From the NCBI RefSeq assembly GCF_005576615.1, contig NZ_CP040330.1, positions 558,001 through 622,000 on the forward strand: DNA of 64,000 bases, written 5' to 3'. Below, one piece after another: positions 29,737 to 38,748 of this stretch. Source of the stretch: Natrinema versiforme (GTDB taxonomy: Archaea > Halobacteriota > Halobacteria > Halobacteriales > Natrialbaceae). A program made the position numbers and the translations under genes. The notes under the pieces are model-generated. The model saw only the letters and a list, made by a program, of their open reading frames with translations. It was not told the origin of the DNA and did no database searches. Every line of letters starts with the position of its first letter. Position 1 is the first letter of the stretch.

Positions 29737-31158
29737 ATGGCTACCCACGATTCGCGATCCGGCGACGGCTTCGCCCCCTTCTTCCGCCGCTACGCGAAGT
29801 CGTGGGTTCACGCGGTCGCGGCGGCCGGCATGACCGCGTTCGGGACGCTGACGATCGTCCACCGCGGCTTTGCGGTGCTCGCGCTCGCGTCCTACGTCGT
29901 GCCGCCGATCGCGCTGTACCTGTGGCAACTGTCGAGCGACGGCACCGGCGGCGAGAGAACGGGCGAACGCACCGGGAGCAACGGAACGAGCGATAGAGCG
30001 GACGCCGCGGCGACCGATACTCGAGCAATGGACGCGGAGACCGCACCGCGCAACCAAGCCGCGATCGGGAACGGCCTCGAGACCGGTAGTGAAACCGAAA
30101 TCGCCGATCGCACGGTGACCGAGGGCAGCGCCGGGACCGCCGACGGCACGGCGACCGCCGCGACGCCCGACAGCGCCGAGACCGAAGCGGGCAGCGGCGG
30201 TGGCTCGGCCGCCCCCTCCGAAGATGACGAGACCGCGGCCGAGCACGCGAGCGAACCAGCGCCGTCTCGCGACTGGCGTCTCGTCGACGTGCCGACAGAG
30301 ACGACGCTCCGCGATGTCAGCGTGACCGAGACCGGCGCGGTCTACGCGGTTGGCGGCGGCGGACTGGTTCTCGCCGCGGGTTCTTCCGACGGCAGCGACG
30401 GCGACTGGTCGATCATCCTCGAGGACGGCCCGGCCGCCGCGGGCGAGGACCTCGCGGGGGTCGACGCGACCGCCGCGGGCGAGGCGGTCTGGGTCGCGGG
30501 CGACAGCGGCTCGGTGGGTCGGCTCGAGGCCGAAACCGGAATCCACACGGATTACACGGCTCCCGCGGACATCACCGACAACTGGCTCGGCGTCGCGGTC
30601 GCCGGCGCGAGCGGCGACGAGACGGTCCTGCTGATCAACGGCTCCGGGGCGGTCCTCCGCGGGCGCTATCGCGACGGGGACTGCTCGTGGGCCGAGCCGG
30701 TCACACCGGGCAGCGGCTCGAGTCTGAGCGGGATCGCCCTCGCCGACGCGTCGATCGGCTACTGCTGCGATACGAACGATAGCGTCTTCGAGACGACCGA
30801 CGGCGGGGAGTCCTTCGAGCGCGTCGGGCTCGGCGACGCGAGCGGCACGCTCGAGAACCTCGCGACGCTGGGGCGAGACGACTGTCTGGTGAGCGCGGAC
30901 GACGGGATCGTCCACCGCTACGGCGGGTCGACGTGGACGCCCGAGCGGGTCGGCGAGGAGGCGATCTGTGGCATCGCCCGCCGCGAGGCGGAGACGATCG
31001 CCTGCGACGCGGACGGGGTGATCTACGAGCGAGCGGCGACCGGATGGGAACAGGTCGACGCGAGCGCGCCGGAACCGCTCATGGCCGTCTCGGTCGAGAC
31101 GGGCGGGGACCGGGCGGTTGCGGTCGGCGAGGACGGCACCGTCGTCGAACGGCGGTGA
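29737..31158 (+). CDS. Membrane-anchored beta-propeller (YCF48/BNR-like) protein
   Basis: 473 residues. Two hydrophobic segments near residues 22-65 (VHAVAAAGMTAFGTLTIV and LALASYVVPPIALYLWQL) are followed by an acidic Thr/Ala/Gly linker to about residue 180. Then come repeated strands of the BNR/YCF48 kind (LRDVSVTETGAVYAVGGGG, EAVWVAGDSGSVG, VLLINGSGAVLRG, VFETTDGGESFERVG, LVSADDGIVHRYGG). This propeller class often assists assembly of membrane complexes, but no partner can be named. It is preceded by LUD and followed by a gap of about 300 bp. Confidence 0.75.
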   Translation: MATHDSRSGDGFAPFFRRYAKSWVHAVAAAGMTAFGTLTIVHRGFAVLALASYVVPPIALYLWQLSSDGTGGERTGERTGSNGTSDRADAAATDTRAMDAETAPRNQAAIGNGLETGSETEIADRTVTEGSAGTADGTATAATPDSAETEAGSGGGSAAPSEDDETAAEHASEPAPSRDWRLVDVPTETTLRDVSVTETGAVYAVGGGGLVLAAGSSDGSDGDWSIILEDGPAAAGEDLAGVDATAAGEAVWVAGDSGSVGRLEAETGIHTDYTAPADITDNWLGVAVAGASGDETVLLINGSGAVLRGRYRDGDCSWAEPVTPGSGSSLSGIALADASIGYCCDTNDSVFETTDGGESFERVGLGDASGTLENLATLGRDDCLVSADDGIVHRYGGSTWTPERVGEEAICGIARREAETIACDADGVIYERAATGWEQVDASAPEPLMAVSVETGGDRAVAVGEDGTVVERR

Positions 31159-32686: not shown

Positions 32687-35263
32687 GTGAGTAATCGACG
32701 CCCGAGCGACCGACGCGGCGGCTGTCGGCTGTGCGGGACGCCGCTCTCGGAGACCGCCGCGGGTGAGACGGGAGCAGACGAGTTCTGTTCGCCCGGCTGC
32801 CGCGACGTGGCCGCCGAATTCGGGACGAGCGATAGCGGGGGCGATGGCGACGGTGAGGGCGACGAGCAGAGCGACGGCGCTAGCGCCGCCCCGACCGAGA
32901 GCGCGGGTGCCGATCGGTCCGAGGGCGACCCGACCGATCGGCCCGACGGCCCCGCCGAGGACGGGACCGTCCGCACGTTCTTCCGGGTCGACGGCATGCA
33001 CTCGGCGACCTGCGAGGCGTTCCTCGAGGCCGTGGCCGAGGGCCGAGACGGCGTGACTGCGGCCGAGGCGAGTTACGTCACGGAGACGGTTCGCGTCGAT
33101 CACGATCCGGACGAAATCACGACGGACGCGCTCGAGGATGCGCTGAGCACGCTCGGGTACACGGCGTACCTGCGGGACGAGGCGACCGCCGACGAGGAAA
33201 CGGGCGGCACGCAGCGCTCGCGCGAGATGTCCGGGCTGCGAAAGCGCCGATCGGACGACATGCTCGAGATGCGGTACGTCGTCGGCGTCGTCTTCGGCTC
33301 CTTCCTCCTGTTGCCCTTCGTGGCCGTCCTCTACCCGATGTTTCTGACCTCGTTTACCGACTGGGGGGCGATCGAACACTTCGAGGGGGCGTTCACCGGC
33401 TTTACCGGCCCGCTGTACCTGCCCTTCTTCCTCGTGATGACGGGTGCGATCGTCTACCTGACCGGCGGCCCAGTCCTGCGGGGCGCGTACGTCAGCCTGA
33501 AGCTGCGGCGGCCGACCACGGACCTGCTCGCGGTCCTCACGATACTTGGCGCGTACGCGTTCAGCATCCTCGTCTCCGGGCTCGGGCGCAACGACCTCTA
33601 CTTCGATCTGACGATCGCCGTCGCCGCCATCGTGATGGGCGCGACCTACTACGAGGCGACGGTCAAGCGCCGCGCGACGGACCGGCTGACCGACCTCACC
33701 GTCTCGCAGGTCGACACGGCCCGGCTGTACGCCGACGACGGCTCGACGACGGAGCTCCCCGTCGCCGACCTCGAGTCCGACGACCGCGTGCTCGTCCGCG
33801 AGGGCGAACGCATCCCCGTCGACGGCCGGCTGGCCGAGGGCAAGTGTGCGGTCGACGAGGCCGTGGTGACGGGGGAGTCGCTGCCGGTCACGAAACGCGC
33901 GGGGGACGACGTGGTCGGCGGCTCGGTCGTCACGACCGACGCGGCGGTGGTCGACATCGGCGAGCGGACGACCAGCAGCATCGAACGGCTCACGCGAGTC
34001 GTCTGGAACGTCCAGAGCGCGGACCACGGCGTCACGCGCCGGGCCGACGAACTCGCCGCGGTCCTCGTGCCCGTCGTCCTCGCCGCCGCGGTCGTCGTCG
34101 GCGCGGGCGCGCTGCTCACCGGTGCGAACGGGGTTGCCACCGCGTTGGCCGTCTGCATGACGCTCATGGTCGCGAGCCCGTGGGCGCTCGGGTTCGCGAC
34201 GCCGTACTCCGTCGCCGCGAGCTTACAGCAGGCGCTGGAACGCGGCATCGTCGTCTTCGACGAGACGGTCTTCGAGCGGCTGCGAGCGGTCGACACCGTC
34301 GTCTTCGACAAGACCGGCACGCTCACGACCGGCGAGATGACCGTCCGCGAGGCCGACGCGCCCGACGACCTGCTCGCGGCCGCCGCGGCCCTCGAGCGCC
34401 GCGCGGCCCACCCCGCCGCGGCGGCCATCGCGGGCGCGTTCGGCGGCGACGAGGGCTCGGTCGACGGCGATCACGATGGCGAGCCGACTCGAGCGGACGG
34501 CGGGTCGACCGCTACCGATGGTCTCGAGGTCCGAGACTTCCGGACCCACGCGACCGGGGTCGAGGGAACCGTCGACGGCAGCTCCGTGCTCGTCGGCCAT
34601 CCGGATCTGTTCCGGGAGCGAGCGTGGGACCTCGAGAACGACCTCGCGGAGCGGGTCGACCGCGCACGCGAGGCCGGTCACCTCCCGGTCGTCGTCGGCC
34701 GGGACGGGACCGCCGAGGGCGTCGTGATTGTCGGCGACGAGCCTCGCGAGGCGTGGGACGAGACGCTCACGGCGCTCGACGAGGACGGGGTCGACGTCGT
34801 CGTTCTGACCGGAGACGACGGGACGGCGGCCGAGGTCTTCGATCGCCATCCGGGCGTCGATCACGTCTTCGCCGGGGTCTCGCCCGACGGCAAGACGGCG
34901 GCGATCGAGCGGATGCGAGCCGACGACCGCGTGGCGATGGTCGGCGACGGGACGAACGACGCGCCCGCGCTCGCCGCGGCCGATCTGGGTATCTCGCTGG
35001 GCAGTGGCACGGCACTCGCCGCCGACGCGGCCGACGTCGCGATCGTCGACGACGATCTGGCCGCGGTCGAGGAGGCGTTCGCGCTGGCGGGGGCCGCACG
35101 CGACCGACTCAGGCAAAACCTCGGGCTCGCCTTCGTCTACAACGCGATCGCGATTCCCGCCGCCGTCCTCGGCGTCGTGAACCCGCTGATCACGACCGTC
35201 GCCGTTGTCGCCGGCACCCTGCTCATCGTCGGGAACGCCGAGCGACCGCTCGTCGGCGACTGA
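32687..35263 (+). CDS. P1B-type (heavy-metal) ATPase with atypical metal site
   Basis: 858 residues. Seen: an N-terminal Cys finger (C13xxC16, C34xxxC38), an acidic linker, and a ferredoxin-like HMA domain whose motif is GMHSATC (103-109), lacking the first Cys. Membrane helices and an actuator with TGES (395-398) follow. The TM6 metal motif reads SPW (497-499) in place of CPC. Then phosphorylation DKTGTLT (541-547), the HP pair (575-576) and the hinge [10 protein letters not shown] (753 on). Known: P1B ATPases export Cu, Zn and similar metals through CPx. The catalytic engine is intact, but the usual ligands are lost, including the last-helix MSxSS motif, so the substrate is uncertain. GTG start. 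Confidence 0.9.
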
Positions 35264-36733: not shown

Positions 36734-38194
36734 ATGTGGCAGGGCGACGGCTACTGGCTCGTCCGCGTCGTCTTCCAGCGCGGCCTCGCGTTGTTGTACC
36801 TGCTCGCCTTCCTCGTCGCAGCCAAGCAGTTCCGGCCGCTGGCCGGCGAGGACGGCCTGTTACCCCTCGAGCGGTACGTCGACGGCGTCTCGTTTCGCGA
36901 CCGGCCGAGCCTCTTCTATTTCGTCTCGAGCGATCGCGCGATCGGGATCGCGGCGTGGACCGGCGTCGGACTGTCGGCGCTCGCGCTGGTGGGGGTCCCC
37001 TACTGGCTGCCGACGGGGTACGCGACGCCCGCCTCGATGGCCCTCTGGGCGGCGCTGTGGGCGCTGTATCTCTCCTTCGTGAACGCAGGCCAGACGTTCT
37101 ACGGCTACGGCTGGGAGTCGATGCTCTGTGAAACCGGCTTCCTCGCGATCTTCTTGGGCGCGGGATCGGTCGCGCCGCCGTTCATCGTCATCCTGCTCGT
37201 TCAGTGGGTACTCTTTCGCAACATGTTCGGAGCCGGGCTCATCAAGCTCCGCGGGGACGACTGTTGGCGGGACCTGACCTGCATGGACTACCACTACGAG
37301 ACCCAACCGATTCCGAATCCGGTGAGCTGGTTCGCCCATCACCTGCCGGACCGCTTCCATCGCGTGGAGACCTTCGGGAACCACGTCCTCGAGTTGCTGA
37401 TCCCTTTCCTGTACTTCGCCCCGCAGCCGCTGTCGGCGCTGGCCGGCGCGGCCACGATTGGCTTTCAGGGCTGGCTCATGGTCACCGGGAACTTCGCGTG
37501 GCTGAACGCGCTCACGATCGTGCTGGCGATTCCGACGTTCAGCGACGGGACGCTCGCAACCGTACTCCCGATTTCCGCGCCGGCGACCGCCCCAACGCCG
37601 CTGTATCTCGAGGTGCTCGCGATCCTGTTGGCCGCCGTCGTGGTCGTCTTGAGCGTCCGGCCGGTCCAAAACATCCTCTCCGAGCGCCAGTTGATGAACA
37701 CCTCGTTCGATCCGCTCAACCTCGTCAACACCTACGGCGCGTTCGGGTCGGTCACGCGGGACCGGTACGAGGTCGTCGTCGAGGGAACCACCGACAAGGA
37801 GATCACGGCGGCGACGGAGTGGCAGCCGTATCGATTCAAGGGGAAGCCGACCGATCCCGAGCGCCGGCCGCCGCAGGTCGCGCCCTACCACCTCCGGCTC
37901 GACTGGCAGCTGTGGTTCGCCGCCATGTCGCCGACTCCGCGCCGCCATCCGTGGTTCCACCGGTTTCTGGCGAAGCTCCTCGAGGCCGACGCGGACACGC
38001 TCGCCCTGCTCGCCGAGGACCCCTTCGACGGGGAACCGCCGACCCACGTCCGCGCGGCTCGGTACCACTATCGGTACACGACGCCAGAGGAGCGGGCCGA
38101 AAGCGGCCGCTGGTGGTCCCGCGAGCGCGTCGGGACGTACGTCCACCCGGTCTCGCTCGAGGAGTTGCACGTTCGCGAGCCGCGGCTGCGATGA
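36734..38194 (+). CDS. Lipase maturation factor (LMF1-like) membrane protein
   Basis: 486 residues. Seen: MWQGDGYWLVRVVFQRGLALLYLLAF, an N-terminal helix with the family's FQR segment, YGYGWESMLCETGFLAIFL, GLIKLRGDDCWRDLTCMDYHYETQPIPNP, RFHRVETFGNHVLELLIPFLYF, and the C-terminal VNTYGAFGSVTRDRYEVVVEGT plus WQPYRFKGKP and LDWQLWFAA. These are the most conserved blocks of the LMF family, which in animals aids lipase folding in the ER. The microbial role is not known. It is convergent, 21 bp apart, with a DCC thiol-disulfide oxidoreductase gene, a recurrent type of neighbour. Confidence 0.92.
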   Translation: MWQGDGYWLVRVVFQRGLALLYLLAFLVAAKQFRPLAGEDGLLPLERYVDGVSFRDRPSLFYFVSSDRAIGIAAWTGVGLSALALVGVPYWLPTGYATPASMALWAALWALYLSFVNAGQTFYGYGWESMLCETGFLAIFLGAGSVAPPFIVILLVQWVLFRNMFGAGLIKLRGDDCWRDLTCMDYHYETQPIPNPVSWFAHHLPDRFHRVETFGNHVLELLIPFLYFAPQPLSALAGAATIGFQGWLMVTGNFAWLNALTIVLAIPTFSDGTLATVLPISAPATAPTPLYLEVLAILLAAVVVVLSVRPVQNILSERQLMNTSFDPLNLVNTYGAFGSVTRDRYEVVVEGTTDKEITAATEWQPYRFKGKPTDPERRPPQVAPYHLRLDWQLWFAAMSPTPRRHPWFHRFLAKLLEADADTLALLAEDPFDGEPPTHVRAARYHYRYTTPEERAESGRWWSRERVGTYVHPVSLEELHVREPRLR

Positions 38195-38215: not shown

Positions 38216-38602
38216 TTAGGTGTCGTCGGAATCCTGGCGCGCCGGTGGTGTCCTCGAGAGGTATGTCCCCCACCGGTCGCGGTTGTCCGCGACCCACCGG
38301 TAGGAGCGCTCGCGGAAGTGCTCGTAGTCCTCGAACTGCCCGAGGAACTCGACGACGTCTTGTGCAGGCTCGGCGACGTCGGTACGGACGAACGCCTCCT
38401 CGATCGAGGCCCCACAGGAGTAGACGCCGTCTTCGGCGACCAGATGCGAGCAGTCCTCGTAGTCCTCGGGCAGTCGCTCGCGCAGGTCGTCCGTGAGGTC
38501 GCTGAAGCCGACGATGCGTAGGTCCGTCCGCTCGTCGAAGTACTCCGCCCACCACGTACAGAAACCGCAGTCGTCGTCGTAGACGAGTGTCGCCTCGGTC
38601 AT
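38216..38602 (-). CDS. DCC family thiol-disulfide oxidoreductase (DUF393)
   Basis: 128 residues from the ATG at 38602 (MTEATLVYDDDCGFC). The active-site motif DDDCGFCTWW (D-x-x-C-x-x-C, Cys about 12 and 15) gives the family its name. Further: FSDLTDDLRERLP and the YSCGASIEEAF segment with a third Cys. Known: a thioredoxin-like fold, with function little studied; members sit near vitamin-K carboxylase-like or LMF-like membrane proteins. The convergent pairing here with an LMF protein suggests both act on disulfide or folding processes at the membrane. Confidence 0.88.
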   Translation of the reverse strand: MTEATLVYDDDCGFCTWWAEYFDERTDLRIVGFSDLTDDLRERLPEDYEDCSHLVAEDGVYSCGASIEEAFVRTDVAEPAQDVVEFLGQFEDYEHFRERSYRWVADNRDRWGTYLSRTPPARQDSDDT

Positions 38603-38748
38603 ATCCGAAGCAAGGGGCTCGAGACACAAACGCTTGGCTCGGCTCGAGGTCCGTGGCGCGCCGCGCGGAACGCCGCGGGATGTCGAGCGAGTTCCGACGG
38701 GCGACTCGAGCGCCGGGATACTTGGGCCGGGGCAGCGAAGCGGTTCCC

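Follow-up and report, generated by a model that had tools for sequence, protein, structure and literature searches.

Introduction

P1B-type ATPases are sorted, and their metals predicted, by a motif in the sixth transmembrane helix (TM6), whose first or third residue varies between subgroups, as in P1B-4 and P1B-5 (SPC, TPC) and in P1B-3 (CPH). To our knowledge, no P1B subgroup has Trp at the third position of this motif, and none was found in the papers searched. In the P4 and P5 ATPases, whose substrate is not a cation, the residue at the canonical cation site (in TM4, equivalent to TM6 of P1B) is non-charged or hydrophobic. The P1B subgroups have been described (PMC10654040). The known pumps closest to the protein considered here are CopA (P1B-1) and the FixI/CcoI-type (CopA2-type) copper ATPases. 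In R. capsulatus CcoI, the double mutation C417A/C419A abolishes the Cu(I) transport current and lowers ATPase activity by only about 30% (PMC8475189).

Here a group of haloarchaeal ATPases is described in which a conserved Trp replaces the key second Cys of CPC, thus breaking the rule by which the TM6 motif is read. The group, referred to as XPW, shares with FixI/CcoI the eight-helix P1B core and the Tyr-Asn pair of TM7. Its N-terminal Cys finger followed by one HMA domain resembles the FixI/CcoI arrangement, and its nearest relatives in the same genomes are CPC pumps of that layout. Unlike FixI/CcoI, XPW replaces CPC, lacks the Met-Ser pair of TM8, has an HMA motif that is mostly SxxC and adds an invariant Cys387. 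CopA is the top match by sequence among solved structures and among the top by fold; unlike CopA, XPW is without any of the membrane Cys and Met ligands of Cu(I) and scores below the copper cut-off of TIGR01511. The presence of XPW and its putative CPC ancestor in the same genomes is a natural experiment, and XPW makes it testable how a P-type ATPase alters or abandons its substrate with its engine retained.

The window protein

The window is a stretch of 64,000 nucleotides of the Natrinema versiforme genome (4.67 Mb), and the gene under study sits on a contig of 3.75 Mb. Its features are given below, with counts referring to XPW homologues and to their CPC relatives.

32687..35263, + strand: XPW-type P1B-derived ATPase, 858 aa, GTG start, stop codon ending at 35263
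32723..32800, + strand: N-terminal Cys finger, C13xxC16...C34xxxC38, with the four Cys in 91/91 XPW and 12/12 CPC proteins
32981..33163, + strand: HMA domain, residues 99-159 (PF00403, 7.2e-11), with Ser106 replacing the first Cys of CxxC; position 106 is Ser in 75/92 and Cys in 8/92 XPW, and the second Cys, Cys109, is present in 90/92
33845..33847, + strand: Cys387 of the actuator domain, 8 residues before TGES, in 92/92 XPW and 0/12 CPC relatives
33869..33880, + strand: TGES, residues 395-398, phosphatase motif of the actuator domain, E397 in 90/92
34175..34183, + strand: S497-P498-W499, in the unwound part of TM6 at the CPC position, Trp in 92/92 and Pro in 92/92
34307..34321, + strand: D541-KTGT, phosphorylation site, 92/92
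34409..34414, + strand: H575-P576 of the nucleotide-binding domain, 92/92
34943..34960, + strand: GDGTND, hinge motif, residues 753-758, 92/92 with the final Asp in 91/92
35138..35143, + strand: Y818-N819 of TM7, retained pair of the copper site, Tyr in 87/91 and Asn in 91/91
35204..35218, + strand: position of MxxSS in the last helix, residues 840-844, here VVAGT; the motif is lost, and Met840 is present in 12/12 CPC relatives

The open reading frame bears out what the initial annotation had read from the sequence: SPW at residues 497-499 (bases 34175-34183, with the codon of residue 497 at 34175-34177), an HMA motif GMHSATC (residues 103-109) without its first Cys, with Ser at 106 and Cys109 retained, the loss of MxxSS from the last helix, where VVAGT is found, and the presence of TGES, DKTGT, HP, GDGTND and C13/C16/C34/C38. 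Its summary that the usual metal-binding residues are absent is right for CPC, MxxSS and the first HMA Cys but too broad for Tyr818-Asn819 of TM7 and HMA Cys109, which are retained.

Pfam assigns E1-E2 ATPase, HAD hydrolase and HMA domains to the protein. It is a P-type ATPase of the HAD type, with a phosphorylated Asp, by DKTGT, TGE, GDGxND, the P, N and A domains and the fold, and it is P1B by descent, by two extra N-terminal transmembrane helices, HP, HMA and the NCBIfam model TIGR01525 (404 bits, above the cut-off of 346). It lies outside P1B-1 by CPC, MxxSS and its score with the copper model TIGR01511 (356.1 bits, below the NCBIfam cut-off of 397), with the P1B-1 Tyr-Asn of TM7 present. 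Two CPC relatives in the same genome pass TIGR01511 (446 and 424 bits), and two other XPW/CPW members fail it. The closest PDB relatives by sequence are CopA and ZntA. An AlphaFold2 model, for which 46 XPW sequences from this analysis and from public sources were used, has a mean pLDDT of 77 (above 88 for about residues 451-520), and in this predicted model the helix bearing SPW is broken at 497-500, as the P1B fold expects. In VIA-align, the model reaches Z 28.0 over 574 aligned positions (rmsd 6.2) with 4umv, a crystal structure of ZntA, and Z 26.9 over 623 (rmsd 6.9) with CopA 3rfu.

Distribution and phylogeny

Full-length similarity selected homologues at E up to 1e-250 in 87 of 121 family genomes, with others taken from further families, and each one read carries either CPC or XPW, with Trp in every XPW protein. 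After removal of duplicates, the XPW set comprises 92 distinct homologues (75 SPW, 11 CPW, 5 TPW and 1 NPW); a homologue from another Natrinema genome is 91% identical to the window protein. Since P-W stands at the same place in all non-CPC homologues read, from many independent assemblies, SPW is neither chance nor error, and a sequencing error at this motif was ruled out. An exact DNA pattern scan for the PW codons upstream of DKTGT at a set spacing matched 135 of 391 Halobacteria genomes and, as counted from the scan table, 89 of 101 Natrialbaceae genomes; the reversed control pattern gave 0 matches among the matches listed for the 391 genomes. The invariance of Trp is counted from the homology-selected set only, as the set fetched by the pattern is circular for Trp.

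The search and tree of SPW ATPases that the initial annotation had proposed for the Halobacteria yield one haloarchaeal clade, as XPW is monophyletic (FastTree LG, support 0.996) and nested inside the haloarchaeal CPC group. Along the XPW tree position 497 has switched repeatedly between S, C, T and N, and Trp499 never. As W499 is fixed while its neighbour drifts, it looks selected more than tolerated, which speaks for an active contribution of the Trp side chain. Outside the Halobacteria, XPW occurs sporadically among the matches listed from public genomes (118 stretches), for example in Salinisphaera (CPW), Facklamia, Massilia and Bradyrhizobium (a fragment), and VPW in Thermoplasmatota, again among those listed, belongs to another P-type group; all non-Halobacteria XPW matches added to the tree branch apart from the haloarchaeal clade. 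The protein of a Salinisphaera MAG (L238) is an isolated case, a CopA-like bacterial ATPase with CPW in which MxxSS is kept and the other copper motifs are ordinary.

The literature searched contained nothing relevant on CPW or SPW ATPases; a characterised SPW homologue that moves Cu or Zn normally was not found in the open literature searched and may still exist. As judged from the sequences, XPW is a widespread and previously unsorted haloarchaeal group, descended from copper pumps and absent from the papers searched, and many haloarchaeal entries named 'heavy metal translocating' or 'cation-translocating P-type ATPase' are probably not ordinary copper pumps.

Residues of the former copper site

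The residues of the catalytic cycle are retained throughout XPW. In particular, D541KTGT, H575P576, T708GD, K736 and GDGTN are present in 92 of 92 proteins, D758 in 91 and TGE in 90, and the four finger Cys, N819 (91/91 each), C109 (90/92) and Y818 (87/91) are likewise kept. The ligands of Cu(I) have a different fate. Both Cys of CPC are found in 12/12 CPC relatives; every XPW protein is without the second, and 11/92 have the first. Met840 and Ser844 of TM8, again in 12/12 CPC relatives, are lost in XPW, with no Met at 840 among the residues listed. In the first helix (TM-A), M205 is lost and M208 largely lost, each being present in 12/12 CPC relatives, and HMA C106, also 12/12, remains in 8/92 XPW proteins; some CPW members still carry GMHCATC. 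Gained and invariant in XPW are W499, C387 in the actuator, Y197 and F206, with P210 in 90/92. The predicted Cu(I) site is dismantled in XPW, as the CPC Cys pair, the Met and Ser of TM8, the TM-A Met and the first HMA Cys are gone, and canonical Cu(I) transport by these proteins is unlikely. The earlier proposal that an intact catalytic core combined with an altered membrane site points to another substrate or to a role outside transport is supported, and it now describes a property of the whole clade.

The N-terminal finger had been put forward as a substitute metal site. Since the same finger is present in 12/12 CPC relatives and resembles the FixI-type metal-binding domain, it is evidently inherited from the CPC relatives and not a replacement. 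The FixI-type family PF12156 gives weak, sub-threshold matches in relatives; it is not among the matches listed, at E up to 1, for the window protein. Two Natrinema orthologues (L018, L019) carry GMQSAID, in which both HMA Cys are gone, a further step of metal-binding loss. Trp814 of TM7 is present in 12/12 haloarchaeal CPC relatives and in no XPW protein. A coupled swap of Trp between 814 in TM7 and 499 in TM6 was considered and rejected: this position is Phe in the unrelated CPW protein L238 and Leu in L251 and varies in other P1B pumps, so that Trp814 is counted as a mere difference.

Selection within Natrinema

Median pairwise dN/dS values, calculated within Natrinema by a Nei-Gojobori script, were compared between XPW and the plasmid CPC paralogue, a contrast that is descriptive since pair numbers are unequal between the sets and pairs are not independent. 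For the whole protein, the values are 0.205 for XPW and 0.090 for the paralogue. By region, they are 0.129 and 0.120 in the actuator, 0.187 and 0.045 in TM1-4, 0.333 and 0.063 in TM5-6, 0.232 and 0.125 in P/N, 0.161 and 0.098 in TM7-8, and 0.214 and 0.064 in HMA. XPW is under purifying selection, with a membrane path 4-5 times looser and an HMA domain freer than those of the CPC pump, and with an actuator that is equally constrained. In-frame TGA occurs within the matches of a few plasmid copies (G148:C5:66083-68296, G268:C3 and G290:C11), and some XPW copies may therefore be decaying.

CPC relatives and gene neighbourhoods

Two CPC paralogues in the genome of the window share 50% and 48% identity with the XPW protein; both have the N-terminal finger and GMHC[AS]TC, and more distant P1B pumps are also present. 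The chromosomal CPC relative (C2:3275436-3277940; L115:11949-14846) adjoins COX2- and COX1-like genes, and at least one match to it was found in 29 of the 29 Natrinema genomes searched; the Cu(I) job thus appears already filled. Other CPC relatives adjoin a TauE/SafE-like gene, assigned by eye, of which the one copy scanned has no Pfam match.

In the window, the XPW gene is flanked by genes for a GNAT acetyltransferase and an MFS transporter, followed by a lipase maturation factor-like protein. Across the Natrialbaceae no constant operon partner was found, the neighbours being only loosely shared, and oxidase or oxidase-assembly genes lie beside XPW neither in the window nor on Natrialbaceae chromosomes; they are present in some plasmid islands. 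Outside the Natrialbaceae, XPW is often found on plasmid-size contigs next to copper genes. The stretch read holds another P1B ATPase, a multicopper oxidase, a halocyanin/cupredoxin or oxidase genes at 17 of 27 such loci, with multicopper oxidase at 11, a CopB-type CPH ATPase at 9 and another P1B ATPase at 16, and these copper islands are not independent, as several are near-copies of one another. By public annotation, the island on Haloarcula marismortui pNG600 includes a copper-translocating ATPase, a plastocyanin-family protein, a multicopper oxidase, DsbB and CtaA; that on Halorubrum salinarum pHAR02 includes cytochrome oxidase subunits I and II and a multicopper oxidase; and a Natronorubrum daqingense plasmid island includes SCO and CcdA. 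The COX1/COX2 neighbours, the copper islands and the CPC relatives in 29/29 Natrinema genomes support an origin of XPW in copper or oxidase biology, from a CPC parent whose probable role was a FixI/CcoI-like copper supply.

Possible functions

Among the explanations weighed, the one ranked first, to which we give a little less than even weight, is that XPW is an active P-type ATPase whose transport site has been rebuilt and whose cargo is something other than free Cu(I). XPW would have arisen by duplication of a haloarchaeal FixI/CcoI-type, oxidase-supplying Cu(I) ATPase, and its transport site would have been rebuilt around Trp499. Position 499 is the canonical cation site, at the place of the second CPC Cys and of Glu309 in SERCA, and Trp499 could act there as a bulky hydrophobic gate or platform. 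With no Cu(I) coordination expected at the former CPC site, the protein would still run the E1/E2 cycle with ATP and may move another cargo tied to copper or oxidase biology, and the finger and the lone HMA Cys probably still sense or receive a metal or thiol, thereby regulating the ATPase. In favour of this reading are the monophyly of XPW inside the CPC group, the retention of the catalytic residues with loss of the Cu(I) ligands, the fixed Trp499, the regional dN/dS contrast, the CPC relatives in all Natrinema genomes searched and a predicted fold that matches ZntA and CopA with the TM6 break kept. From the behaviour of CcoI C417A/C419A (PMC8475189), XPW plausibly hydrolyses ATP without moving Cu(I). 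Weighing against this reading are the observations that the copper-island neighbours would also suit a pump still handling copper, that Tyr818-Asn819 is retained and that a looser membrane path may reflect decay instead of a new cargo. A wider proposal, possible but doubtful, is that XPW would form a novel subclass of P1B descent whose Cu(I) site became an aromatic gate for a non-metal or complexed-metal cargo, an independent parallel to the P4 and P5 ATPases; XPW has no sequence kinship with these past the common P-type core, the parallel is one of analogy, and nothing here points to a lipid or polyamine cargo.

Ranked second, and rather improbable in our judgement, is a regulatory or assembly partner that does not transport, in which metal at the finger would gate the ATPase cycle, Trp would plug the path and the cycle would drive or sense the state of a CPC pump or oxidase. 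The loss of transport ligands from a relaxed membrane part, with an actuator as constrained as that of the CPC paralogue, the full retention of the finger Cys and the co-occurrence of CPC relatives in every Natrinema genome searched would all fit such a role. However, the whole E1/E2 machinery, the TM6 break and the Tyr-Asn of TM7 are kept, beyond the needs of a pure sensor, and Natrialbaceae have no conserved operon partner. Third and less likely again is a pump that has kept Cu(I), or another soft metal, as its cargo and moves it with lower affinity through Tyr818, Asn819 and Cys387 or an exchanged path, and that serves the copper islands. The copper context of the 27 loci outside Natrialbaceae and the first Cys in the 11 CPW proteins, some with GMHCATC, speak for it, but no XPW protein has the second Cys, Met840 was seen in none, the islands already hold CPC or CPH pumps, and CcoI CPC mutants do not transport (PMC8475189). 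That XPW is a decaying paralogue, with both transport and ATPase function gone, is very improbable: the whole-protein dN/dS exceeding that of the CPC paralogue and the in-frame TGA stops of a few plasmid copies are set against catalytic residues that are invariant across 92 proteins, a dN/dS far below 1 and a gene kept in most Natrialbaceae genomes.

Other neighbouring genes

A membrane protein with several helices, marked by a CTCGCCGP motif and without a Pfam match (L116:11098-12309, - strand), adjoins or lies near XPW in the mobile copper islands; its relatives occur at 14 of the 27 loci outside Natrialbaceae, and it is a possible XPW partner. In the window, positions 36734-38194 encode an archaeal protein resembling lipase maturation factor 1 (domains LMF1 and LMF1_C), which is adjoined by a gene for a DCC1-like thiol-disulfide oxidoreductase (38216-38629). 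The product of 29737-31158 has a sub-threshold YCF48-like (PSII_BNR) match, and this family is found near the XPW gene in several genera.
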